This document shows positions 1,812 through 64,000 of a DNA stretch of 64,000 bases, piece by piece. The position numbers and the translations under genes are program-made. The stretch lies in NCBI GenBank assembly GCA_016931225.1, contig JAFGFE010000035.1, positions 1 to 64,000 of the forward strand, in the 5' to 3' direction. Each line of letters begins with the position of its first letter. Within the stretch, counting starts at the first letter, position 1. This DNA comes from Candidatus Zymogenaceae bacterium (lineage in GTDB: Bacteria; Desulfobacterota; Zymogenia; Zymogenales; Zymogenaceae). The notes beneath the pieces were generated by a model, which was not told the DNA's origin, ran no database searches, and was given only the letters and a program-made list of their open reading frames with translations.

Positions 1812-4205
1812 TTATCGTATTTGTACGCTCAGCGTCTTTTCAAGCACATCGATAACCCTGCTGTGCACAGTATTCACCTCTTCATCCGTCAACGTCCGCT
1901 CATCAGATTGATACATGACACTCAACGCCAAGCTTTTCTTTCCCTCGTCTATCTGCCTGCCCGTATAGACATCGAATACGGTTATATCCCTGCCGATATC
2001 ACCCGTTGCATCCCGCACTGCTTCGACGATATCCCGTGAACGTACACTCTCCGCCACAATCATGGCGATATCCCTGAGTACGGGGGGGTATCTCGGTATG
2101 GAAGTGTAGGTAATAACCTCCTTCTCAACCTTCTCCAAGGCTGTTAGGTTTACTTCCATCACATATACGGTGCGGTTCAGGTCATATCTCTCGGCGACGT
2201 TCTCATCGAGCTTTCCCATCACTCCGATGATATCTCCACCTATCTTGATGACGCACGATTCCACCGAATCCAGGTATGGAATCGACCCCGCATCGTCATA
2301 GGAAACATCGGAAACGCCGATTCTCTTTACCAATGTCTCCCAGGTACCCTTCAGATCGAAGAAATCCATGGGCTGTATTTCCCTGCCCCATTGTTTGGGG
2401 TATCGATCACCGGATATCAGCGCCGATAACATATACGGTTCATCCGGGAGCTTTTCCTGCTTCCTTGGGGTATAGACCCGGGCGATTTCAAAGAGTTTGA
2501 GATCAGTATTGAGGTGGTTCATGTTGCCCGCAGCGACCTTGACTATCCCCGGTATGAGGGTCGTGCGCATGACCGCCATCTCTTCGCTCATCGGATTTTT
2601 CAACTCCACCGACGAGCCGTTTTCCATGCCCAGCCGCGCAAAGGTATCCCGCTCGATAAAGCTATAGGTGATAATCTCCGAGAATCCCTCCGAGATCATC
2701 ACATCGAACGCCCGTCGCGCCAGTCTCTCATGCTCCGTTCGTACTTTGTGCCCCATCGCTATCTCGGGAAGCGTCTCCGGTATCTCGTCGTATCCCTTTA
2801 TCCGGGCCACCTCCTCGATGAGATCGATTTCGCGATCGAGGTCCAGCCGGTACGACGGTGGGGTGACATCGAGCAGGTCGCTCTTCTTTTTCTTGACGTC
2901 CATGGAAAGCCGGGTCATGATATCCACGGTCTCTTCCGTGGTGACGTCGAATCCGATAATCTTCCGGGCGCGCTCCGGTCTGAGGTGAATCGTCGGGCGC
3001 ACGGGCACGGATCCGACCTCATCGATGATTCCCTTGGCCGCTTTCCCCCCCGCCAGATCCACCATCAGTTGCGTGGCCCGGTCGGCGGCCGTCGCCTGTC
3101 CGCCGGGGTCAACCCCACGCTCAAAGCGATAGGCCGCCTCGGTCATCAGGTTGAGGTATCGGGCGGATTGATGAATGGAGGGCGGATGGAAAAAGGCGCT
3201 CTCTAAAAGCACCGTATCGGTGTCGTCTTGTATCTCCGAGTTGGCGCCGCCCATGATGCCTCCGATGGCCACAGGCCGCTTCCCGTCGCATATCATCAGA
3301 ATATCGTCGGACAGGGTACGCTCGACGGCGTCCAGCGTGAAAAATGTTTCCCCTTTTTTCGCCCGCTTGACAACGATCCTGTTTTCTTCGAGCAGATTAT
3401 AGTCGAATGTGTGAAGGGGCTGTCCGTATTCCAAAAGAACGTAGTTCGATATATCGACGATGTTGTTGATGTCCCGAATCCCGAGGGCAGAGAGACGCAT
3501 TCTCATCCAGAGCGGAGATCTTTCGATGGAAACATCCTGGATGACCCGGGCGACATATCGCGGACACAGATCCTTGTCTTTCACATCAACGGATGTGAGT
3601 GAGGTGATGTCATCACCCTCCTCGGGAAAAGTAATCTTCGGGATGTGAAGGGGGGCATTGAGCATCGCCGCGATGTCCCGAGCCAGCCCGATGATGCTCA
3701 GGCAATCCGATCGGTTCGGTGTGATGGAGATATCGAACAGGTAATCCGATACATCGAGGATCGTGTCTATCGCCTGGCCCGGTTTTGCCGTATCGGGAAG
3801 CTCAATAAGCCCCGTATGATCCTGGGTGATCCCCAGTTCGTCCTCGGCCAGGAGCACGCCGGCGGATTCGACGCCCTTAAATTTCCGCTTCTCGACGGTC
3901 ATGCCACCGGGAAGCCGAGTCCCCGGAAGCGCCAGGGCGGTCTTGAGTCCGACGGTGACATTGGGGGCGCTGCTGACGAGCCCGATGGTCTGGCCGCCGG
4001 TATTCACCTTCGCCACGAAAAGGGTATCCGATTCCGGGTGAGGTGTCACCTCGACAATCTCGCCCACAATGATTGCATCCAGGCCCTCGCCGAGACGCAC
4101 TACCTCCTCGACCTCCAGGCCGGACATTGTCAGAAGATCACTAAAAGGCTCGACATCCATATCGATGTCGACAAATTCCCGGAGCCACTGTAATGTCGTT
4201 TTCAT
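1812..4205 (-). CDS. pheT: Phenylalanyl-tRNA synthetase beta subunit
   Basis: At 797 residues this has the usual bacterial PheT length. Visible domains are an N-terminal tRNA-binding OB-fold (residues ~39-150, with HPESDTLFVAKVN), the B3/B4 editing domain (~210-390), the B5 domain (~400-475), a catalytic-like core and a C-terminal ferredoxin-like anticodon-binding domain (from ~700, with RYPPVLRDIAMIV). It pairs with PheS to form the (alpha-beta)2 enzyme that charges tRNA-Phe and hydrolyses mischarged Tyr-tRNA-Phe in the cytoplasm. The gene starts 12 nt after the pheS stop codon, so the two are probably translationally linked. Confidence 0.97.
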   Translation of the reverse strand: MKTTLQWLREFVDIDMDVEPFSDLLTMSGLEVEEVVRLGEGLDAIIVGEIVEVTPHPESDTLFVAKVNTGGQTIGLVSSAPNVTVGLKTALALPGTRLPGGMTVEKRKFKGVESAGVLLAEDELGITQDHTGLIELPDTAKPGQAIDTILDVSDYLFDISITPNRSDCLSIIGLARDIAAMLNAPLHIPKITFPEEGDDITSLTSVDVKDKDLCPRYVARVIQDVSIERSPLWMRMRLSALGIRDINNIVDISNYVLLEYGQPLHTFDYNLLEENRIVVKRAKKGETFFTLDAVERTLSDDILMICDGKRPVAIGGIMGGANSEIQDDTDTVLLESAFFHPPSIHQSARYLNLMTEAAYRFERGVDPGGQATAADRATQLMVDLAGGKAAKGIIDEVGSVPVRPTIHLRPERARKIIGFDVTTEETVDIMTRLSMDVKKKKSDLLDVTPPSYRLDLDREIDLIEEVARIKGYDEIPETLPEIAMGHKVRTEHERLARRAFDVMISEGFSEIITYSFIERDTFARLGMENGSSVELKNPMSEEMAVMRTTLIPGIVKVAAGNMNHLNTDLKLFEIARVYTPRKQEKLPDEPYMLSALISGDRYPKQWGREIQPMDFFDLKGTWETLVKRIGVSDVSYDDAGSIPYLDSVESCVIKIGGDIIGVMGKLDENVAERYDLNRTVYVMEVNLTALEKVEKEVITYTSIPRYPPVLRDIAMIVAESVRSRDIVEAVRDATGDIGRDITVFDVYTGRQIDEGKKSLALSVMYQSDERTLTDEEVNTVHSRVIDVLEKTLSVQIR

Positions 4206-5976: not shown

Positions 5977-6495
5977 CTACTTTTTCGGGGCAATAATCAT
6001 GACCATGTGTCGGCCTTCTAGCTTGGGGTTGGCCTCCACGGTCCCGAACTCCTCAATATCCGCGACGACCCTATCCAGGACCTTACGACCGATATCCGTA
6101 TGCGTTATTTCCCGGCCCCTGAAAACCATGGTCACCTTTACCTTGTCCCCGTTTTCCAGGAACTCTTGCATATGCCGTATCTTGAACGACAGGTCATGCT
6201 CCTGGGTTTTGGGGCTGACCTTGACCTCCTTGATGCTGACCACGGACTGCTTCTTCTTCGCATCGTGAGCCTTCTTGCTCAACTGATACTTGTATTTCCC
6301 GTAGTCCATGATACGGCACACGGGGGGATCGGCGTTCGGGGCTACTTCAACGAGATCGAGTCCCGCTTCTTCAGCCCGTTCCCGTGCCTCACCGATGCTG
6401 ACAACCCCCAACTGCTCACCATCCGAGCCGATCAGGCGTACCTCATCGGCTCTGATCCGGTGATTGACTCTTACGTTTTTCGATTTGTCTTTTAT
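5977..6495 (-). CDS. infC: Translation initiation factor IF-3, starting at AUA
   Basis: The frame encodes 172 residues with the IF-3 signature VNHRIRADEVRLIG near the N-terminus, the linker region and a C-terminal domain ending in KLEGRHMVMIIAPKK. IF-3 binds the 30S subunit and rejects non-canonical start codons and elongator tRNAs. The full-length N-terminus can only be reached from the ATA codon at 6493-6495, because the codon before it is the thrS stop TAA. A Shine-Dalgarno GGAGGG sits five nt upstream, inside the thrS end. In E. coli infC begins with AUU and is autoregulated through IF-3's discrimination against it; the same logic is inferred here. The next candidate start (TTG at 6411) would remove the conserved N-terminus. 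Confidence 0.93.
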   Translation of the reverse strand: MKDKSKNVRVNHRIRADEVRLIGSDGEQLGVVSIGEARERAEEAGLDLVEVAPNADPPVCRIMDYGKYKYQLSKKAHDAKKKQSVVSIKEVKVSPKTQEHDLSFKIRHMQEFLENGDKVKVTMVFRGREITHTDIGRKVLDRVVADIEEFGTVEANPKLEGRHMVMIIAPKK

Positions 6496-8403
6496 TTATA
6501 CCCTCCAAAATACGGAGCTCTCGCTCCTGATTAATGAAAGAAATTCCTCGACGCTCATCGGGTCAAGGTTTTTCCCTCCCAATGCTCTGGGCGTTACCTG
6601 TTTTGCTTCAACCTCATTATCGCCGATAATCAGGGCATATGGGATCTTTTGGAGCTGCGCCTCCCGAACTTTCAGGCCCAGCTTTTCATTTCGAAAATCC
6701 CCCTCAACCCGTGCCCCCGCACGTTTCAATTCATCAACGACATCCCGGGCATACGCAATATGATTATCGGTGATGGTCAGGACAATCGCCTGCACCGGCG
6801 CCAGCCCCACCGGGAACGCTCCGGCATAGTGTTCGATGAGCACTCCCAGAAACCGATCGACGGATCCCAGGATGACCCTATGCAACATGACTGGGCGCTT
6901 TCTCTCACCGTCGGCGTCGACGAAGGTTAGATCGAACCGTTCAGGCAGCGTGAAATCACACTGGACGGTGGCGCACTGCCACTCGCGGCCCAAGGCATCC
7001 TTGAGCTTGAAATCAATCTTGGGGCCGTAAAAGGCTCCGTCCCCCTCGTTTATTTCAAATTCCTGGCCCTGCCGCTCGAGGGCGTATCTGAGAGCGTCGG
7101 TGGCCCGCTGCCAATCTTCATCTGTCCCGATGGATTTTTCCGGCCGTGTCGAAAGTTCCATTGCGTATGGAAACTCGAACACACCCATCACATAATCGAT
7201 AAACTCCATCACCCCGACAATCTCATCCACCAGTTGATCCGGCGTGCACAGTATATGTGCATCGTCCTGGGTGAAGGCGCTGACCCGGAGCAGGCCGTGC
7301 AACTGCCCCGATTTCTCATGCCGGTGCACCGTGCCGAGTTCAAAATACCGCACCGGCAGGTCACGATAGCTCCTGATTCTCGATTTATAGATGAGCATGT
7401 GGGCCAGACAGTTCATCGGCTTGATGCCGTATTCCTGGCCGTCCGCCTCGGTAAAATACATCAGGTCGCGGTAATTGTCGTAGTGACCCGATCGTTCCCA
7501 CAGTTCCTTTTTCAGGATCAGTGGGCCCATGACGATGTCATATCCCCTTTTGAGATGCTCCCGACGCTCGAAGTCTTCCAAGATCGTCCGAACCATCGCC
7601 CCCTTCGGGTGATAAATCGGCATTCCCGCTCCCGCCTCGTCGTTGAACTGGAACAGATCCAGCTCTCTCCCAAGCCTGCGGTGATCCCTCTTTTTAGCCT
7701 CTTCAAGAAACTGAAGGTGCTGCTTGAGAGCCTTGTTGTCCGCAAAGGCGGTGCCGTAGATGCGCTGGAGCATCCTGTTTTTCTCATCCCCCCGCCAGTA
7801 TGCCCCGGCGATTGAGGTGAGTTTGAACGCCTTGATGGATTTGGTCGATGGGACGTGGGGCCCGCGACATAAATCGGTGAACCCTCCCTGGGTGTATAAG
7901 GAGACATGATCGTCCTCGATATCATCCAGGAGTTCAAGCTTGTATATTTCTCCGAGCTTTTCGAACAGCGCCCGGGCCTCGGCCATCGGCAGCACTCGTC
8001 TCTCGAAGGGGAGGTCCTGCCCGACGATCTCCTTCATCTTGTTCTCGATCTTTTCCAGATCATCGGGAGTGAACGGCTCGGGCTTGTCAAAATCGTAATA
8101 AAATCCGTTTTCGATGGAAGGACCGATGGCGACCTTGACATCGGGATACAAGGACTTCACGGCCTCCGCCATGACATGGGAGGTCGAATGCCTGATGATC
8201 GCCAGACCCTCGGGAGAATCAACGGTGATAAAGCGAACGTCCGCGTCTTTCGGGGTCGAAAGAGACAGGTCTTTCGGCTCTCCGTTCACGTACGCCGCCA
8301 CCGCTTTTCCACGCAGGTTTTCCGGGACTTTCTTTAAAAGCGTCTCTTCTTTCGATACGCCGGATTCCGCGAGCTTTTTGCTTTCCACTTTAGATGCGTT
8401 CAT
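6496..8403 (-). CDS. thrS: Threonyl-tRNA synthetase
   Basis: The 635-residue protein contains a short TGS-like domain (~residues 1-70), an editing domain with HSTSH (~95) and the zinc-linked CRGPH motif (~195), the class II catalytic core with PMNCLAH (Zn cysteine) and [14 protein letters not shown], and a C-terminal anticodon-binding domain. It charges tRNA-Thr and clears Ser-tRNA-Thr. The TGS region looks about ten residues shorter than usual, and the common NCPGH reads NCLAH. The stop codon abuts the infC start. An intrinsic terminator lies 18 nt upstream of the start codon, so attenuation control is likely. Confidence 0.95.
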
Positions 8404-40233: not shown

Positions 40234-41322
40234 ATGTCAACCGCCAGTAGTGTCGATTCCGCGAAGATCAAAGCGAAAGTCGACGCAGTAACAGAGAAAA
40301 TCAAGACCACCAGTGTGCTCAAGTACCCGCTTATCATTTTCGTGCTGCTCTACCTCTTTTACGTCGCGTTTTTCGTCTACATCAAACCCAACGAAGTGGG
40401 CATCCTGGAGGTGAAATTCAACGTCATCCCCTTCCTGAGGGATTCCAGGGGCATCCAGGAAGAGCCTCTGGATACCGGCCTCAGATTCGTTATCCCCTTC
40501 GTGGAGAAGGTCCATATCCTGCCGAAGGACATCCAGGTATTTGACCTGACCAATTTCCCCACCCATTACACGAAGGGCTACAAGCCGTCGGAAGCGGCCC
40601 ATATCCAGACGTCCGACGGCTTTTACGTGGACGTGGACGTGTCGATTCTTTATCGCATCAGCGACCCGTATCTGACCTTCACAGAGATCGGCCCCGGCAT
40701 CCTGTATGAAACCAATGGTATCGAACCCAACGCGGAGCCGATCCTGAAAATCGCCCTGGGAGAGCTGACCACCGAGGAATTCTACAACAGCCCCATACGC
40801 TCCGAGAAGGCGGAGTTGGCCCGGGAGATGCTCAACGAAAATCTGAATCCCAAGGGCATCACCGTGGAGCACGTGCTGGTGCGCTATTTCGTCTATTCGG
40901 ACGAGATACAGAAAAACATCGAGGAAAAAAAGCTGATGGACCAGCTCTTCTTCACCCGAAAATCAGAGGCCAAGGCGGCAGCGGAACTGGCGAACGTCAA
41001 GAAAATCATCGAGGAGGGCGAAGCGGAGGTGGCGGTAAAACTGGAGGAGGGAAACGCCTATGTGGTCATGAAGGAGGCGGAGGCCGAGGAATACGTCCGT
41101 AAGCGGAAGGCCGAGGCGGACCTCCTGGTGGAGCTGGCTGAGGCGGAAAAGCAGCGGCTCCTCAACGAGGCGTTATTGGGTTCAGGCTCCAAGAACATCG
41201 TGGGACTCGAGATGGCGAAGGTCTACCAGGGCCTTGACGTCATCATTCTTCCCAGCGACGGACCCAGCGGCATCAATCCTCTGGACCTCGATGAAACCCT
41301 CAAGCTGTTCGAGGTAAGGTAA
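40234..41322 (+). CDS. SPFH/band-7 domain protein, membrane-anchored
   Basis: The 362-residue protein has a short cytoplasmic N-terminus, one membrane segment (~29-50) and a prohibitin-type SPFH domain (~51-230) with KPNEVGILEVKF, TSDGFYVDVDVSILYRISDP and LNENLNPKGITVEHVLVRYF. A long Glu/Ala/Lys-rich coiled coil follows (~235-320). Such proteins assemble into ring-shaped membrane scaffolds, as HflK/HflC and stomatins do. The GGAGG site is good. The next gene encodes a second SPFH protein 12 nt downstream, so the pair may form a hetero-oligomer. Confidence 0.85.
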   Translation: MSTASSVDSAKIKAKVDAVTEKIKTTSVLKYPLIIFVLLYLFYVAFFVYIKPNEVGILEVKFNVIPFLRDSRGIQEEPLDTGLRFVIPFVEKVHILPKDIQVFDLTNFPTHYTKGYKPSEAAHIQTSDGFYVDVDVSILYRISDPYLTFTEIGPGILYETNGIEPNAEPILKIALGELTTEEFYNSPIRSEKAELAREMLNENLNPKGITVEHVLVRYFVYSDEIQKNIEEKKLMDQLFFTRKSEAKAAAELANVKKIIEEGEAEVAVKLEEGNAYVVMKEAEAEEYVRKRKAEADLLVELAEAEKQRLLNEALLGSGSKNIVGLEMAKVYQGLDVIILPSDGPSGINPLDLDETLKLFEVR

Positions 41323-41334
41323 GGGAGGCGCATC

Positions 41335-42390
41335 ATGAAACATACCATACGAGCGATCCTGATACTGTCGGCTTTCGCCCTTCTCCTTTCCGGGTGCTAC
41401 ACCACCGGACCCACCGAGGTGGGCGTACGCACGAAAAAAATCACCTTCTTCGGGCTGCTGGGGAAAAAGGGCGTTCAGGATAAGATCTACCAGCCCGGCT
41501 CCACATACATCATGATCCCGGTCATTAATGATTTTCATACCCTGGATATAAAAGTCCAGACGATGGAGATGATGGGCGAGGATCATAACCTCCTGTTCAA
41601 GACCATCGACGGGAACGACATCTCCATGGACGTCATCATCAGGTACAAAATCGATAAGGAGATGGCCCCGTACATCATCCAGTACGTGGCGAAAAACGAT
41701 GACGAGGTTCGAGACGCCGTCGTCCGCACCGTTTGTCGGAGTCGTCCCCGGGACATTTTCGGCGAGCTCAAAACCGAGGAGTTTTACATCTCCAAAAAAC
41801 GGGAAAAACAGGCGGAGGAAGCCAAGCGGATTCTCAACGAAATCCTCAATCCCTACGGCATCATTGTTGAAGAGGTCAACACGAAGGACTACGGCTTCAA
41901 TCCTGAATATACGAAGGCCATTGAGGACCGCAAGGTGGCGGACCAGTTGGCGGAAAAATACATCTCCGAGGCCCTGGCCAAGGAAGAGGAGTATCTCAAA
42001 AAGCTCAACGACGCAGTTGGCGAGGTAAACAAGATGGTGGCCGAAGCGGACGGTAACTACCGCAAGGCCGTCATCGAGGCGGACGCATACTTTGAGCAGC
42101 AAAAACGCATCGCCGAGGCGATCCTGGCCGAAGGGTTGGCCCAATCGGAGGCCCTCAAGGAGAAAAACAGGGCCCTCACCGGGGCGGGGGGCGAGAAGCT
42201 GGTCATGCTGGAGATAGCCAAGAGCCTTCAAGGCAAGAAAATCATACTCCTTCCCATCTCGGGGGGGAGCGTGGATCTAAAAACCACCGATATCAACCGG
42301 CTCCTGGAGACGTACGGCACTCTGAAGCTGAAGGAAAACACATCGCCCGCACCGGCTGCTCCGTCAAACCCGACGGCGCCGACGCAATAG
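41335..42390 (+). CDS. SPFH/band-7 domain lipoprotein
   Basis: The 351-residue protein starts with a lipoprotein signal (LLLSGC, Cys ~21) instead of a membrane helix, then an SPFH domain (~25-215, with GPTEVGVRTKKI, TIDGNDISMDVIIRYKID and LNEILNPYGIIVEEVNTKDYG). A coiled coil with many Ala, Glu and Lys residues follows, and the end is a Pro/Ala tail. A lipid anchor puts the domain outside the cytoplasm, unlike the usual cytoplasmic orientation of stomatins, though HflK/HflC are also periplasmic. It is co-transcribed with the other SPFH gene. Confidence 0.82.
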   Translation: MKHTIRAILILSAFALLLSGCYTTGPTEVGVRTKKITFFGLLGKKGVQDKIYQPGSTYIMIPVINDFHTLDIKVQTMEMMGEDHNLLFKTIDGNDISMDVIIRYKIDKEMAPYIIQYVAKNDDEVRDAVVRTVCRSRPRDIFGELKTEEFYISKKREKQAEEAKRILNEILNPYGIIVEEVNTKDYGFNPEYTKAIEDRKVADQLAEKYISEALAKEEEYLKKLNDAVGEVNKMVAEADGNYRKAVIEADAYFEQQKRIAEAILAEGLAQSEALKEKNRALTGAGGEKLVMLEIAKSLQGKKIILLPISGGSVDLKTTDINRLLETYGTLKLKENTSPAPAAPSNPTAPTQ

Positions 42391-42464: not shown

Positions 42465-42923
42465 ATGGCAACTGACCTGAAAGACCAGGAACTTTTGGTC
42501 TATGAGAGCAGGATCAAAGTTCCATATACCTGGTCGGTGGGCGAGGTGGGGAGCCGTTTCCTCACCGAACTCAAGGAAAACAAGAAAATATGGGGAACCA
42601 AGTGCCCCATATGTGAGGCGGTCTTCGTCCCGCCGAAAAAGACCTGTACCTTCTGCTTTGTGGCCTGCCACGAGTGGGTCGAGCTGAAGGACGAGGGAGT
42701 TCTTCAGACCTACACCGTTGTTCGGTACGACAGCGACCTGATCCCGGGGAAAAAACCACAAATCATCGGGATAGTACTGCTGGACGGCGCGGATACGGGC
42801 ATCGCACATATGATCGACGGCGTCTCTCCTGATCAGGTAAAGGTGGGCATGCGGCTCAAGGCGGTCTTCAACGATAAGCGTACGGGCCAGATTCTGGACA
42901 TCAAACATTTCAAACCGATTTGA
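42465..42923 (+). CDS. DUF35 OB-fold zinc-ribbon acyl-CoA-associated protein
   Basis: Started at ATG 42465 (SD GGAGGTG eight nt upstream), the product has 152 residues. A rubredoxin-like zinc ribbon with C47xxC50 and C61xxC64 is followed by an OB-fold ending VGMRLKAVFNDKRTGQILDIKHF. DUF35 proteins bind acyl-CoA and bridge partner enzymes, as in the archaeal thiolase/HMG-CoA synthase complex, benzylsuccinyl-CoA thiolase (BbsA) and steroid retro-aldolases. It should pair with the adjacent thiolase-fold protein. Confidence 0.85.
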   Translation: MATDLKDQELLVYESRIKVPYTWSVGEVGSRFLTELKENKKIWGTKCPICEAVFVPPKKTCTFCFVACHEWVELKDEGVLQTYTVVRYDSDLIPGKKPQIIGIVLLDGADTGIAHMIDGVSPDQVKVGMRLKAVFNDKRTGQILDIKHFKPI

Positions 42924-42934
42924 TGAGGTGAACC

Positions 42935-44083
42935 ATGAGCGGTATTGACAACATCGCCATCGTCGGTGTGGGACAAACCACTATAGAGCGAAACAAGCTC
43001 GGGGACACCTTCGCCGATATGGTATTTGAAGCAACCCAGAAGGCCCTGGAGGACGCCGGCATGACGATGGACGACATCGACAACGTCATCACCACCTCCA
43101 ACGACTTCTGGGACGGCAGGACAATCTCGACCATGGCGGTCGGCGACGCCTGCGGCGCCGGCATGGGGAAAAACATGTCCGCCCTGGAGGGCGACGGCAC
43201 ATTCTCCTGTTTCTACGGCATGACACGAATTCTCTCCGGGGTGTACGGGACGAGCCTGGTGGTCGCCCATGTGAAGGGGTCTGAATCGGAAAATCTTCTG
43301 ATCACCAACGCCATATTCGACCCGCTCTATATGCGGCCCATCGGCCTGGACTCCCTGAACTCGGCGGCCCTGCAGATGCGCCGGTACATGACGAAATACG
43401 GCGTGACCGAAGAGCAGTGTGCGAAGGTTTCGGTGAAAAACCATAAAAACGCCTTGAAAAACCCCTATGCACAGATCAAGAAGGAGGTCAGCCTGGAGGA
43501 CGTGTTGGAATCCCGTCTCATCGCCGATCCCCTGAAACTGTATGACTGCTCCCCCATCTCCGACGCCGCCTGTGCGGTGATTATCGCCGGAGACGATCGA
43601 GCGAAAAAGGCCAAGAAACCGGTATGGGTCAAGGGCGTGGGATACTGTGCCGACTCCTACTTCCTGGGAGACAGGGACCTGGCCGACGCCTTGGCGTTGG
43701 ATATGGCCGCATCGAAGGCGTACGAGATGGCCGAAATCACCGATCCCCTCGAGGAGATCGACGTGGCCGAAGTGTACGACGCCTTTTCCTACATGGAGTT
43801 GATGTGGTACGAGGGCCTGGGCTTCTGCCCCGTCGGCAACGGAGGAAAACTGATCGATAAGGGAGTCACCGAAATGGACGGGAAGCTTCCGGTCAATCCC
43901 TCCGGCGGCCTCCTTTCCGGGCATCCGGTTATCGTCGGCGGCATGATACGGCTGGCCGAGGCGGTGCTCCAGGTACGGGGCGACGCCGGTGATCACCAGG
44001 TGAAGAACGTTAACACCGCCCTGGCCCACGGGATCAATGGCCCCTGCGGACAGTCACACTGTGTTTGGATAGTAGGGAGGTAG
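42935..44083 (+). CDS. Thiolase-fold acyl-CoA enzyme without the canonical nucleophile (A)
   Basis: The 382-residue protein aligns with SCP2-type thiolases: the N-terminal half, the VNPSGGLLSGHPV motif with the catalytic His (~residue 322), and a C-terminal GPCGQSHC cysteine motif. Where thiolases have the acyl-accepting CxSG, this protein reads EGDG (residues 85-88); the nearest cysteines are C73 and C92. It may therefore be a C-C lyase or aldolase, as in Ltp2-like steroid aldolases, or use another cysteine. It is flanked by a DUF35 gene and a second thiolase and overlaps neither. Confidence 0.8.
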   Translation: MSGIDNIAIVGVGQTTIERNKLGDTFADMVFEATQKALEDAGMTMDDIDNVITTSNDFWDGRTISTMAVGDACGAGMGKNMSALEGDGTFSCFYGMTRILSGVYGTSLVVAHVKGSESENLLITNAIFDPLYMRPIGLDSLNSAALQMRRYMTKYGVTEEQCAKVSVKNHKNALKNPYAQIKKEVSLEDVLESRLIADPLKLYDCSPISDAACAVIIAGDDRAKKAKKPVWVKGVGYCADSYFLGDRDLADALALDMAASKAYEMAEITDPLEEIDVAEVYDAFSYMELMWYEGLGFCPVGNGGKLIDKGVTEMDGKLPVNPSGGLLSGHPVIVGGMIRLAEAVLQVRGDAGDHQVKNVNTALAHGINGPCGQSHCVWIVGR

Positions 44084-44085
44084 TC

Positions 44086-45243
44086 ATGGGTAAAAAGAGA
44101 ACGGCAATTGTGGCCACCGGCCAGACCCATCACCGCTCCAGCCGCCTGGATGTCAACGGCATTGAGTTGATAAACGAGGCGGTGGTCCGGTGCCTGGAGG
44201 ACGGTGACCTGACCATAGAGGATATCGATGCCGTGGTCATCGGCAACATGGACCACTTTGAGGGCATCAATTACGTTGATACGTGGAGCATCGACGGCAG
44301 CGGCGGATTTATGAAACCGACCTTCAAGCTGACCACCGGCGGCACCACCGGCTCAACCGTCGGGCAGTCAGGCTTCTACCTCACCGCGTCCGGCATGTTC
44401 GACAAGGTTTTGTGTATCGGGTGGGAGAAAAACTCCGAATCCGACACCACCGCAGCCATCACCACCGCCTTCGACCCGATATGGGACCGCCTGGTCTTCG
44501 CCGGGGCCATCGGCGGCCTGGCGGTGGAGGCAACCAAGTATATGTCAGAATACGGGGCCACCGAGGAGGATGCGGCTCACGTAGCGGTGCGGGATCGCAC
44601 CCACGCCCTGAACAACCCCTACGCCCAGTTGAGAAAGCCGATCACCCTCGAGGACGTTATGAGTTCCCCGATGTTGTCCGATCCCATCAAGCTCCTGGAC
44701 GTATGCCCCCGTACCGACGGTGCGTGCGCGGTGGTGTGGGCAAATGAGGACTACGCTGAAAAGATATGTTCGAGACCGGCTTGGTATCACGCCGGATCGG
44801 TCAAACATCCCTTCAACCTGCTTGGGGATACGGACCTCACGACGCTCGTCTCCATGGAGCTTGCGTCGAAGGAGGCCTACAAGAAGGCGGGCATCAAGGA
44901 GCCCCTCAAGGAAATCGACGTGATGGAGCTCTATCTCCCCTATTCCTGCGCCGGACTTTCCTGGATCGAGGCGATCGGCCTGTGCGAGCGGGGCGGCGCC
45001 CCCAGGCTTGTCAGGGACGGAGTGACGAACATGGACGGGGAGCTTCCTATCAATCCCTCCGGCGGCGTCATCGCCACAAACTGCATCGGCGCCACGGCTC
45101 TGCTCCGAATGGCCGAGGCGGCCATTCAGGTCATGGGCAAGGGAGGCGATCGACAGGTTCCGGACGTTGAAACAGCTGTGGCCACCGGGTTCGGCGGGTG
45201 TTTCTGGTCAGACATCTCCGTCTTAAGAAGTAAAAAACCATAA
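44086..45243 (+). CDS. Thiolase-fold protein lacking catalytic Cys and His (B)
   Basis: From ATG 44086 (SD AGGGAGG) the product has 385 residues. The nucleophile position reads GTTG (residues 86-89), where thiolases have CxSG, and the later GHP reads TNC (in GGVIATNCIGAT), so both canonical catalytic groups are gone. The rest of the fold is intact, including DVMELY and ELPINPSGG. It is probably a structural or specialised partner of the preceding thiolase. The two start-stop regions are 2 nt apart. Confidence 0.8.
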   Translation: MGKKRTAIVATGQTHHRSSRLDVNGIELINEAVVRCLEDGDLTIEDIDAVVIGNMDHFEGINYVDTWSIDGSGGFMKPTFKLTTGGTTGSTVGQSGFYLTASGMFDKVLCIGWEKNSESDTTAAITTAFDPIWDRLVFAGAIGGLAVEATKYMSEYGATEEDAAHVAVRDRTHALNNPYAQLRKPITLEDVMSSPMLSDPIKLLDVCPRTDGACAVVWANEDYAEKICSRPAWYHAGSVKHPFNLLGDTDLTTLVSMELASKEAYKKAGIKEPLKEIDVMELYLPYSCAGLSWIEAIGLCERGGAPRLVRDGVTNMDGELPINPSGGVIATNCIGATALLRMAEAAIQVMGKGGDRQVPDVETAVATGFGGCFWSDISVLRSKKP

Positions 45244-45260
45244 GGAAAGGGAGGTCCGAA

Positions 45261-45731
45261 ATGAGCAACCTCGGAGTTGACCTCTTGACGATGCATTCCG
45301 GAGAGGGGGAACAGCCGTTCCATTATGCGATCGGCCGCTACGGCAGCAAGTTCCTGTCCGAGATTCGAGATAACAAGCAGTTTTACGGCATCAAGTGTCC
45401 CAAGTGCGGGAAGGTATACGTGCCGCCCCGCGAGGTATGCGGTCCCTGTTTTACCAAGATGACCGAATGGGTCAAGGTGGCCGACGAGGGAAAACTGTAT
45501 TCATACACCATCCTTCGCTTCGCCTTTCTGGATCCGGAAACCGGCAAGCAGAAACCGGTGCCCTACGGCTACGCCTTCATCACCCTGGACGGGGCCGACA
45601 CGGCCTTCCAGCATTTCGTGGAGATTACCGACGAATCCAAGGTAAAGGTGGGCGCCCGGGTCAAGGCGATCTTTGAGGATAAACGATACGGGAAGATTAC
45701 CGACATCAAGCACTTCGTCATCATCGACTAA
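45261..45731 (+). CDS. Second DUF35 OB-fold zinc-ribbon protein
   Basis: The 156-residue protein is a paralogue of the DUF35 gene at 42465, with C46xxC49 and C60xxC63, and ends VGARVKAIFEDKRYGKITDIKHF. It should bind acyl-CoA and pair with the second thiolase-fold protein. SD GGGAGG is seven nt upstream. The order DUF35-thiolase-thiolase-DUF35 suggests a 2+2 complex. A terminator lies 115 nt downstream. Confidence 0.85.
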   Translation: MSNLGVDLLTMHSGEGEQPFHYAIGRYGSKFLSEIRDNKQFYGIKCPKCGKVYVPPREVCGPCFTKMTEWVKVADEGKLYSYTILRFAFLDPETGKQKPVPYGYAFITLDGADTAFQHFVEITDESKVKVGARVKAIFEDKRYGKITDIKHFVIID

Positions 45732-46176: not shown

Positions 46177-46533
46177 ATGACAAAGACATTCGGAGAATAC
46201 GTGCGAAGCCGCAGGGAGGAGCTGCGGCTCACCGATCCATCCTACTCCGTCCGGCAGGTCGCCTATCGCATCGGCGTGCAGCCCGCGTACCTGAGCAGCG
46301 TGGAGCGGGGGCTGCAGTCACCGCCGTCCGAGGAAAAAATCCGCCTGCTGGCACGGGAGCTGAACGAGGACCCGGACGTGCTTCTGGCGATGGCGGGTAA
46401 GGTATCCGCGGACCTCCTGGAGGTCATCCGAACGCGGCCAAAGCTCTTCGCCCGGCTCATCCGGGAATTGAAACATCAACCCGATCGCACCATCGATCAC
46501 GTCACCAGACAGGTTCGAGACGGCGACTGGTAA
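46177..46533 (+). CDS. XRE-family helix-turn-helix regulator, apparently leaderless
   Basis: The 118-residue protein has an XRE-type helix-turn-helix at about residues 22-60 (SVRQVAYRIGVQPAYLSSVERG) and a C-terminal helical region with DLLEVIRTRPKLFARLIREL. The promoter -10 ends six nt before the ATG, so the transcript should start at or next to the start codon, with no ribosome-binding site. This arrangement is known for controller proteins of restriction-modification systems and some phage repressors. It is followed 12 nt later by the 343-residue gene with a good SD, forming an operon. Confidence 0.85.
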   Translation: MTKTFGEYVRSRREELRLTDPSYSVRQVAYRIGVQPAYLSSVERGLQSPPSEEKIRLLARELNEDPDVLLAMAGKVSADLLEVIRTRPKLFARLIRELKHQPDRTIDHVTRQVRDGDW

Positions 46534-46545
46534 CAGGAGGTATCT

Positions 46546-47577
46546 ATGATCTTTTTGGAACACGATCGCCTTATTTTTTCTTTCCCCGAGGTTCATGAAA
46601 ATGCGACATGTCACATCGAACTGATGCGCACCCTGCGCATCCCCGACGACGGGAAGGACTATCCCCTCCCCCCCGGACTGGGACGGTTTCCGTTAAGATA
46701 TGTCGACGACTTCGCCCATCGCCTCCCCGAATCATGGCTGACCCGGGGCGGCGTGATGTTCCCCATGTACCAGTCCGAAGCGCTCTGGATCCGCCTCTAC
46801 GGTACATTCATCAGCACGCGTGAAACCTATTACCCGTTCGCGGTGAAAATAGCCACGGGAAAGATAAACGCCGTCACCGGAGAAGCATGGGCCGACGGGA
46901 TCTCCGAGGCGCCACAGGATTACGTCGTCATTCCGAAGCAGCCCTGGCTGGATGGATACACGGTGGAAAAGGGCTTCATCCGCCAGTTTGTGGCCATGCC
47001 TCTGGGGAGCGGCTACTCGGCGGAGGAGCAGATCACCGGCGAGGCGGAGCACGGAGGCATCCAGATCATTGCATACCCGATGAAACGGGAGGTGTTCGAG
47101 GAACGCTTCCCCGAGGTAAAGGATTCAGATATTCGCGTCAGATCAAAGATGAAGTCGCCGAAGGCCATGGGAACTGAGCGTGCGCCCGCCATGGGGCTCG
47201 CCCCCGGAGGCCGGATGAAGCAGGAGATATATATTGATCCCTACGGCATCGACGATTGGGACACAGGAAAGTTCAGCCGCTGTTTCATCGCCATCGCCAA
47301 CTCACTGGTATGGAGAAGCATCACCGGGGAGAATCCCCCCACCATGCCGCCCACGGCGGAGGAATACACACGAATGGACCTCCCCTGGTTCGACTATTAC
47401 GACGACGCCCCCGCCCTAAACGGTGCCGATACCTTGAAGGGTCTTAAAAGCGTGGCGGAGCTCGGGGCGGAAAATGGAGACGCGCCCCTTCCCGAGAACC
47501 AATCGGTGACGCCGGGAAACATCATCGCCATCAGGAAGGACCTGAAAGAAAACCAGGTTCGTGAGGAGAAGTGGTAG
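46546..47577 (+). CDS. Conserved protein of unknown function, XRE-linked
   Basis: I do not recognise a domain in this 343-residue protein. No signal peptide or membrane helix is present. Well-ordered motif blocks suggest a folded enzyme or sensor: MYQSEALWI (~70-79), YPFAVKIATGKINAVTGE, PQDYVVIPKQPWLDGYTVEKG, RQFVAMPLGSGYSAEEQITG, EHGGIQI, MGLAPGGRMKQEIYIDPYG, then LPWFDYY and LPEN. The C-terminus is polar. From memory, similar proteins occur in other phyla as hypothetical proteins, but this is unverified. SD AGGAGG precedes the ATG. Linkage to the leaderless regulator suggests autoregulated expression. Confidence 0.75.
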   Translation: MIFLEHDRLIFSFPEVHENATCHIELMRTLRIPDDGKDYPLPPGLGRFPLRYVDDFAHRLPESWLTRGGVMFPMYQSEALWIRLYGTFISTRETYYPFAVKIATGKINAVTGEAWADGISEAPQDYVVIPKQPWLDGYTVEKGFIRQFVAMPLGSGYSAEEQITGEAEHGGIQIIAYPMKREVFEERFPEVKDSDIRVRSKMKSPKAMGTERAPAMGLAPGGRMKQEIYIDPYGIDDWDTGKFSRCFIAIANSLVWRSITGENPPTMPPTAEEYTRMDLPWFDYYDDAPALNGADTLKGLKSVAELGAENGDAPLPENQSVTPGNIIAIRKDLKENQVREEKW

Positions 47578-61908: not shown

Positions 61909-64000
61909 ATGCCCAAGCGCACAGATATCAAAAAAATTCTGATCATCGGCTCAGGGCCCATCATTATCGGCCAGGCCTGTGAATTCGACTACTCCGGAAC
62001 CCAGGCGGTCAAGGCCCTCAGGGAGGAGGGATATGAGGTGGTGCTGGTCAACTCCAATCCGGCCACCATCATGACCGACCCGGACTTCGCACACGCCACC
62101 TATGTGGAGCCGATTACTCCCGAGGCGGTTGAAAAGATCATCGCCAAAGAGAGGCCGGATTGTCTGCTTCCCACACTGGGGGGACAAACCGGCCTGAATA
62201 TCGCCGTAGCGCTGTATACATCCGGCGTCCTGGAAAAATACCACGTCGAGCTCATCGGAGCATCTTTTAGCGCCATAGAAAAGGCGGAAGATCGGGATCT
62301 CTTCAAGGCCGCCATGAAGAAAATCGGCCTGAACCTTCCCGAGAGCGGCTATGCTACAACCCTGACCGAGGCCCGGGAGGTGCTCTCCGACGTCGGTTTT
62401 CCGAACATCATCCGCCCCTCCTTCACCCTGGGCGGCACCGGCGGCAACATCGCCTATAACATGGAGGAATTCGAACAGTACGTCAAGTGGGGCATCGATC
62501 AGAGTCCCACAAACCAGGTGCTCATCGAGGAGTCGGTGCTGGGCTGGAAGGAGTTCGAGCTCGAGGTGATGCGGGACACGGCCGACAACGTCGTCATCAT
62601 CTGCTCCATCGAGAACCTCGACCCGATGGGCATACACACCGGCGACTCCATCACCGTCGCCCCGGCCCAGACCCTCACCGATAAAGAATACCAGATCATG
62701 CGGGACGCGGCCATCGCCATCATCCGGGAGATCGGCGTGGATACCGGGGGCAGCAACATCCAGTTCGCCGTGAATCCCGAAGACGGGCGGCTCGTGGTCA
62801 TCGAGATGAACCCCCGGGTCTCCCGGAGCTCGGCCCTGGCAAGCAAGGCCACAGGATTTCCCATCGCCAAGATCGCCGCGAAGCTGGCGGTGGGCATGAC
62901 GCTCGATGAGATCACAAACGATATCACTCGGGAGACCCCGGCCTCGTTCGAGCCGACCATCGATTACGTGGTCACAAAAATACCGAGGTTCACCTTCGAG
63001 AAGTTTCCCCAGGCAAAGGCCGTCCTGACGACTCAGATGAAGTCGGTGGGTGAGGCGATGGCCATCGGCCGCACCTTCAAGGAATCGCTCCAGAAGGCCA
63101 TCAATTCCCTCGAGACGGATCTCGACGGCTTCATCAATCCACTGACGCCCGAGGAGCAGGACCTCACGAAACCGGAACGCAAGGAAGTGCTCCTGAAACG
63201 ACTCGCCGAGCCGAGACCGGATCGCATTCTGGTGATCGCGGAGGGCTTCAAGCACGGGATCGGCGTGGATCGGGTGCATGAAATCACAAAGATCGATCCC
63301 TGGTTTCTGACCTCCATTTCCCAGATAGTGGAGATGGAAAATGAGATAAAAAAGCTCCTTAAGGGGCACTCCACGGATCTTTTGGATGAGCGGTTTGTAA
63401 ATTACATCGTCGAGGCGAAGGAATACGGTTTTTCCGACTCCCGCCTCTCCCGGCTCATCGGCGTCGACGAGGCCTCGTTTCGGGAGATTCGAAAGGGTCA
63501 CGACATTCGGGCGGTCTTCAAGCGGGTGGATACCTGCGCCGCCGAGTTCGAGGCCCACACCCCCTACCTCTATTCCACCTATGAGCGGGAATGTGAGGCG
63601 GACCCCACCGATGTGAAAAAGATCATGATTCTGGGCGGCGGACCGAACCGCATCGGCCAGGGCATCGAATTCGACTACTGCTGTGTTCACGGCTCCTTCG
63701 CCCTCAGCGATGCGGGATATGAGACCATCATGGTCAACTGTAACCCGGAGACCGTCAGCACCGACTACGACACCTCGGACCGCCTCTACTTCGAGCCGCT
63801 GACGTATGAGCATGTTCTGAACATCGTCGATGTGGAACAGCCCGACGGCGTCATCGTCCAGTTCGGGGGGCAGACTCCCCTGAAGCTCGCCGTCCCCCTG
63901 GAGAAAGCCGGTGTGCCGGTCATCGGCACCAGCCCGGACTCCATCGATCGCGCCGAGGACCGGGAACGATTCCAGGCGATGCTGAACAAGCTGGCCCTCA
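61909..64000 (+). CDS. carB: Carbamoyl-phosphate synthase large subunit (partial, runs off the window)
   Basis: The frame starts at ATG 61909 ([21 protein letters not shown]) and is open to the last base, giving about 697 residues. It covers the first ATP-grasp half ([33 protein letters not shown]), the oligomerisation domain and the start of the second half ([22 protein letters not shown]). The second ATP-grasp half and the regulatory MGS domain lie outside. The enzyme makes carbamoyl phosphate for pyrimidines and arginine. Confidence 0.97.

Follow-up and report, generated by a model that had tools for sequence, protein, structure and literature searches.

A DUF35 and thiolase-fold gene module without the thiolase cysteine in a Candidatus Zymogenaceae bacterium: a putative heteromeric acyl-CoA retro-aldolase resembling Ltp3-Ltp4

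The window analysed here, a stretch of 64,000 nucleotides of a Candidatus Zymogenaceae bacterium (contig JAFGFE010000035.1 of assembly GCA_016931225.1, 3.73 Mb), carries at 42465-45731 four tightly packed open reading frames on the same strand, D1, T1, T2 and D2, in the order DUF35, thiolase fold, thiolase fold, DUF35. D1 starts with an ATG that has a ribosome-binding site, and the ATG of T2, 2 bases past the T1 stop, is likewise preceded by one; residues of T2 are numbered with the codon at 44089 as the first. Pfam recognizes OB_ChsH2_C and zf-ChsH2 in D1 and D2, and Thiolase_C_1 and Thiolase_N in T1 and T2. All four zinc cysteines of D1 (C47, C50, C61 and C64) are present in 75 of 75 sequences and those of D2 in 79 of 79. 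AlphaFold monomer models of T1 and T2 reach a predicted local distance difference test score (pLDDT) of 91.2 and 91.7, and their matches in the PDB include SCP2-type thiolases, BbsB, Ltp2 and Sal. We consider it fairly probable that the four genes encode one heteromeric acyl-coenzyme A (acyl-CoA) retro-aldolase that works like Ltp3-Ltp4.

The original prediction held that both thiolase-fold proteins lack the nucleophilic cysteine and that the second also lacks the histidine of the GHP motif, and both statements are borne out. Upon alignment of T1 and T2 with the thiolases 6hsj, 6esq and 7yvy, with Ltp2 (6ok1) and with Sal (9myr), the cysteine column holds glycine in T1 (G88, within VEGDG) as well as in T2 (G85, within TTGG rather than the GTTG first named), and the GHP position is His330 in T1 and Asn331 in T2. 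The nucleophile is absent from all 75 T1 and all 82 T2 sequences and its loss is thus a property of the lineage. Among the same relatives no substitute cysteine stands at the nucleophile column, and C92 of T1 occurs in 1 of 75 sequences. Where SCP2 thiolases have the motif HDCF, T1 has YDAF and T2 has YLPY. Sal also has glycine at the cysteine position; the catalytic base is Tyr294 in Ltp2 and Tyr302 in Sal, and the Y302F variant of Sal is nearly inactive (PMC12329534).

The two subunits are likely not equivalent, as conservation singles out T2. Tyr282 and Pro284 are found in 82 of 82 T2 sequences, in all paralogues and in the Ltp3-type proteins; together with Asn331 and Gly85 they are fixed throughout the T2/Ltp3 clade. 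In the T1/Ltp4 clade the tyrosine gives way to Ser, Leu, Cys or His and the GHP histidine to Asn or Asp, while D57, S65, D87, Q147 and Q373 are kept. Given that the tyrosine that serves Ltp2 and Sal as base is invariant in the one clade and variable in the other, T2 is likely to be the catalytic subunit and T1 its partner. T1 has a signature of its own, the loop of residues 57-65, in which every position except W59 is invariant in the 59 rows of its alignment. Few stretches of T1 are as conserved as this loop, which at the same time belongs to the parts of the monomer model with the lowest confidence (pLDDT block means 77 and 58); possibly it contacts T2. The positions of these residues are listed in Table 1.

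Table 1. Genes and key residues of the D1-T1-T2-D2 module in window coordinates.
Feature	Coordinates	Strand	Remarks
D1	42465..42923	+	DUF35 (rubredoxin-like zinc ribbon and OB fold), 152 amino acids; PF01796 1e-14, PF12172 3.6e-5
T1	42935..44083	+	Thiolase-fold subunit without nucleophilic Cys (Ltp4 side), 382 amino acids; PF22691 1.2e-41
T1 residues 57-65	43103..43129	+	beta2-alpha2 loop DFWDGRTIS
T1 D87-G88	43193..43198	+	G88 at Cys column; D87 invariant in T1 (75 of 75), T1 paralogues and Ltp4-type proteins
T1 Y281	43775..43777	+	YDAF motif; Tyr in only 63 of 75
T1 H330	43922..43924	+	GHP His; His in 70 of 75, Asn in 5 of 75
T2	44086..45243	+	Thiolase-fold subunit without nucleophilic Cys (Ltp3 side), 385 amino acids; PF22691 1.1e-29
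T2 G85	44341..44343	+	At Cys column (TTGGTTG motif); Gly in 82 of 82
T2 Y282-x-P284	44932..44940	+	Tyr where Ltp2 (Y294) and Sal (Y302) have their catalytic base
T2 N331	45079..45081	+	Replaces the GHP His (Ltp2: Y344); 82 of 82, all paralogues and Ltp3-type proteins
D2	45261..45731	+	DUF35, 156 amino acids; PF01796 4.6e-13, PF12172 2e-7

A maximum-likelihood tree resolves three groups: the thiolases together with Ltp2 and Sal (support 100/99), a T2 group and a T1 group. T2, its paralogues and actinobacterial proteins termed Tb come together at 100/99, and T1, its paralogues and the actinobacterial Ta proteins at 85/69 (89/66 in a smaller set). Both subunits thus fall outside the group of Ltp2 and Sal, T2 siding with the Ltp3 type and T1, less firmly, with the Ltp4 type. 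Ta and Tb adjoin in Streptomyces, Tsukamurella and Nonomuraea. The protein encoded in front of them shows features of DUF35, and in Streptomyces and Tsukamurella it contains two OB_ChsH2_C domains; near the Tsukamurella pair lie genes for a P450 and for a steroid 3-ketoacyl-CoA thiolase. Streptomyces Ta meets the family model NF005924, 'lipid-transfer protein' (353 positions), with 549.9 bits, and Tb meets NF006180 with 713.2. The locus tags of ltp3 and ltp4 are adjacent (PMC8708139), and Rv3521 and its homologues, for which DNA binding was once suggested, adjoin ltp4 (PMC9782250). Double-DUF35 proteins of the Rv3521 type are encoded at 2913-3932 of locus L095 and 5990-6919 of locus L099, and the first OB domain of the Streptomyces protein is devoid of zinc cysteines. 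Ltp3-Ltp4 is described as a heteromeric aldol-lyase that cuts C24-C25 of C24-branched sterol side chains, freeing acetyl- or propionyl-CoA from those of campesterol and sitosterol after carboxylation and hydration; the carboxylate that is left needs re-activation (PMC6678751).

How widespread is the module? A scan of named genomes by one sequence pattern, biased to close relatives of T2, yielded 80 loci that were kept. In 67 of the 68 loci with enough flanking sequence the order D1-T1-T2-D2 and the strand are preserved, the remaining one differing only by a split T1, which argues that the arrangement is not due to chance. The hosts, mostly metagenome-assembled genomes, include Desulfobacterota (Smithella, Desulfosarcina, Desulfatibacillum and Desulfomonile), spirochaetes, Elusimicrobia, Chloroflexi, Poribacteria and the archaeon Ca. 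Methanolliviera. In an even draw from the phylum of the window, 25 of 297 genomes have a T2 at E <= 1e-120. The closest named relative is the module of another Candidatus Zymogenaceae metagenome-assembled genome (L009; T2 identity 81 %), and the window genome itself has a second module on contig C34 (62 %) and a more distant pair on contig C26 (43 %). The search with T2 also picked up a lone T1-like gene on contig C9 of this genome (3118-4212), close to the T1 of C34. On contig C40 (L093, 7367-8560) a thiolase-fold gene adjoins a DUF35 gene; it has glycine in place of the cysteine, keeps the GHP histidine and reads HDAY at the HDCF motif. We found no description of the module in the literature on DUF35-thiolase pairs in anaerobes, on OB-fold proteins and thiolases in sulfate reducers or on the beta-keto acid cleavage enzyme (BKACE) with DUF35, and papers on anaerobic use of benzene, phenanthrene and acetone named no OB-fold or DUF35 protein.

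The relatives lie mostly within genes for the breakdown of acyl-CoAs. Among the 80 loci an AMP-forming CoA ligase is found in 39, an acyl-CoA dehydrogenase in 37, a MaoC hydratase in 26, BKACE in 24, an enoyl-CoA hydratase in 22, a Cys-type thiolase in 14 and a CoA-transferase in 13; TetR regulators and branched-chain-type ABC importers also recur. All 24 BKACE genes in these loci, which total 1.02 Mb, are on the strand of the module, and the window genome holds 2 copies in its 3.73 Mb, one of which adjoins the C34 module, an arrangement repeated in two sister genomes (G001 and G002). As the BKACE loci are interrelated, the 24 do not count as independent events; yet the arrangements are of different types, with BKACE fused upstream, separate upstream or directly downstream. 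Many spirochaete and Smithella-type operons contain a second, divergent T1'-T2'-D2' set and a BKACE fused to a D1-type DUF35, as at 2868-4310 of L018 (OB_ChsH2_C and BKACE), 313-1740 of L028 and similar loci; we found no paper that mentions DUF35 together with BKACE. L081 and L084 have a biotin carboxylase and a carboxyltransferase directly downstream. Directly downstream of D2, at 9625-10527 of L018 and in 25 further loci, lies a protein of about 300 amino acids without a Pfam or NCBIfam match, which by eye resembles a PP2C phosphatase. Beta-keto acids are the substrates of BKACE and of 3-oxoacid-type CoA-transferases. In hosts whose module adjoins a BKACE gene or a CoA-transferase pair, its second product is thus probably a beta-keto acid, which would parallel the Ltp3-Ltp4 scheme.

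Which reaction do these genes serve? The reading as a retro-aldolase is preferred because the loss of the cysteine, the tyrosine of T2, the Ltp3 and Ltp4 relatives and the neighbouring genes together fit it best. In the mechanism that we infer, T1 and T2 would form a heterodimer with the thiolase fold, onto which D1 and D2 would dock as zinc-ribbon/OB-fold staples, as DUF35 does in Ltp2-ChsH2 and Sal-Shy. Tyr282 of T2 would remove the proton from the beta-hydroxyl of a beta-hydroxyacyl-CoA. The bond between C-alpha and C-beta would then break, acetyl- or propionyl-CoA departing as an enolate to be reprotonated and an aldehyde or ketone being left behind; T1, with its retained D57, S65, D87, Q147 and Q373, would be the partner that has lost a fixed catalytic tyrosine. 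The most likely substrates would be beta-branched (tertiary) 3-hydroxyacyl-CoAs, since ordinary beta-oxidation cannot make a 3-keto ester from them. More tentatively, the genes may belong to a hitherto undescribed anaerobic route for beta-branched acids, in which dehydrogenation, in some hosts carboxylation (compare the genes of L081 and L084), and hydration would give a 3-hydroxy-3-substituted glutaryl-type CoA. A one-sided heteromeric aldolase would cut this compound, leaving acetyl-CoA and the beta-keto acid in free form. BKACE, tethered in some loci through its DUF35 fusion, could then turn both products into a new acyl-CoA and acetoacetate, a step of the route that we propose with the same caution. 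If true, this route would replace a step of the 3-hydroxy-3-methylglutaryl-CoA (HMG-CoA) lyase type.

Several findings weigh against the retro-aldolase. T2 lacks both known general acids, Tyr344 of Ltp2 and Cys304 of Sal, and has Asn331 and Pro284 in their places; T1 has His330 and Ala283. The grouping of T1 with Ltp4 is only moderately supported, Ltp4 being on a long branch, and a tree that holds the Ltp3 and Ltp4 types together is not rejected (p-AU 0.087). That Ta and Tb are Ltp4 and Ltp3 we take from layout, length and family model. T2 scores 351.5 against the cut-off of 514 of NF006180 (Ltp3-type) and T1 186.4 against 419 of NF005924 (Ltp4-type); because both miss these curated cut-offs, we describe the module as a putative sister lineage that works like Ltp3-Ltp4, rather than as a member. 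Finally, the module of the window is without catabolic neighbours. Upstream of D1 are two SPFH/Band 7 genes (40234-42390) with no sign of belonging to it, and downstream of D2 a helix-turn-helix regulator gene is followed by a 343-amino-acid protein without any Pfam match (46177-47577). With no BKACE-type catabolic genes beside it, the substrate of this particular module is the least certain. A further open reading frame of the window, of 620 amino acids at 61951-63813, has no Pfam match at E 1e-8.

Could the same proteins make a bond rather than break one? In the direction of synthesis the complex would be an aldolase or condensing enzyme and would couple the enolate of an acyl-CoA with an aldehyde, a ketone or a beta-keto acid. 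This is conceivable, as aldol reactions are reversible and the neighbours in a few loci include FAD amine-oxidoreductase genes and a CrtC-like protein (recognized by eye, no Pfam match), and not just a beta-oxidation set. We nevertheless think it unlikely, given that the context is mostly catabolic, with ligase, acyl-CoA dehydrogenases, hydratases, TetR regulators and ABC importers. Somewhat less likely still is a cysteine-independent enzyme of the Claisen type, which would carry out C-acyl transfer, decarboxylation or hydrolysis of a beta-keto thioester as PhlABC or TbSLP. PhlC and TbSLP share the fold, PhlABC has DUF35 partners, and T1 retains the GHP histidine and an acidic residue next to the former cysteine; however, PhlC-type acyltransferases use a cysteine (a C88S variant was made for 9skm), and the tyrosine of the aldolase base is invariant in T2. 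TbSLP weakly decarboxylates malonyl-CoA, but Sal showed no such activity (PMC12329534).

That the complex merely binds acyl-CoA, with a regulatory or other non-catalytic role, would agree with the loss of both nucleophiles and with active-site residues of T1 that differ among lineages; we hold it improbable, since the pocket residues of T2 are kept in 82 of 82 sequences despite an overall identity of 60-81 %, and the relatives sit in catabolic operons. An ordinary thiolase relying on another cysteine is highly improbable, for although annotated relatives are named 'thiolase domain-containing protein' and C371 of T2 is present in 80 of 82 close relatives, this residue is in a C-terminal loop off the nucleophile column, is replaced by Thr, Ser, Gly or Ile among the paralogues and the Ltp3-type proteins, and is joined by no further conserved cysteine at the site.

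Because these genes carry the name thiolase in databases, pathways of anaerobes that are reconstructed from annotation show thiolysis at a step where aldol cleavage is likelier. The module recurs in anaerobes that degrade hydrocarbons and fatty acids, and as a retro-aldolase would let them pass the beta-branches that block beta-oxidation.

Among known systems, Ltp2-ChsH2 resembles the module in its thiolase fold, its DUF35 partner, the glycine in place of the cysteine and, as in T2, a tyrosine at the histidine position of HDCF; T1 shares these features too, but with tyrosine in 63 of 75 sequences only. Ltp2 is however a homodimer, its Tyr344 and oxyanion His296 are Asn and Pro in T2, and its DUF35 partner is part of a fusion with a MaoC hydratase. 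Sal-Shy has the fold, the DUF35 partner, the glycine and the tyrosine, and differs by Cys304 (Pro in T2, Ala in T1) and by the zinc site of Shy, which is C3H1 as compared with four cysteines here. Membership in this group is rejected, as Ltp2 and Sal form a separate clade that excludes T1 and T2 and their acid residues are absent. BbsAB, the benzoylsuccinyl-CoA thiolase (7pxp) of anaerobes, also combines thiolase-fold and DUF35 subunits, but is a true thiolase with only one kind of thiolase-fold subunit. The original prediction had named it as a possible relative, which is not upheld: the two thiolase-fold subunits reach 157.7 and 117.9 bits with the BbsB model, whose cut-off is 750, and D2 26.8 with the BbsA model, against 250. 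The three-component complex of a thiolase with HMG-CoA synthase includes the best structural match of T2 and has a DUF35 staple, yet retains the thiolase cysteine and histidine.

Ltp3-Ltp4 with its Rv3521-type neighbour comes closest. A carbon-carbon bond reaction other than thiolysis, as originally predicted on the model of Ltp2, gains support from the lost cysteine, the tyrosine of T2 and the operon context, while the nearest described relative is the heteromeric Ltp3-Ltp4 and not the homodimeric Ltp2. The comparison makes two points on Ltp3-Ltp4 testable, namely that only one subunit bears the catalytic tyrosine and that the Rv3521-type neighbour is a double DUF35 subunit. In both systems two unequal, adjacent thiolase-fold subunits without the cysteine are accompanied by two DUF35 units, one subunit having YxP and Asn and the other an invariant Asp beside the former cysteine and the conserved beta2-alpha2 loop. 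They differ in that the DUF35 proteins of the module are separate flanking genes, both with four zinc cysteines, whereas one half of the fused Streptomyces protein is without them, and in that T1 and T2 form clades of their own, in anaerobic hosts, with BKACE or CoA-transferase genes rather than sterol genes as neighbours.

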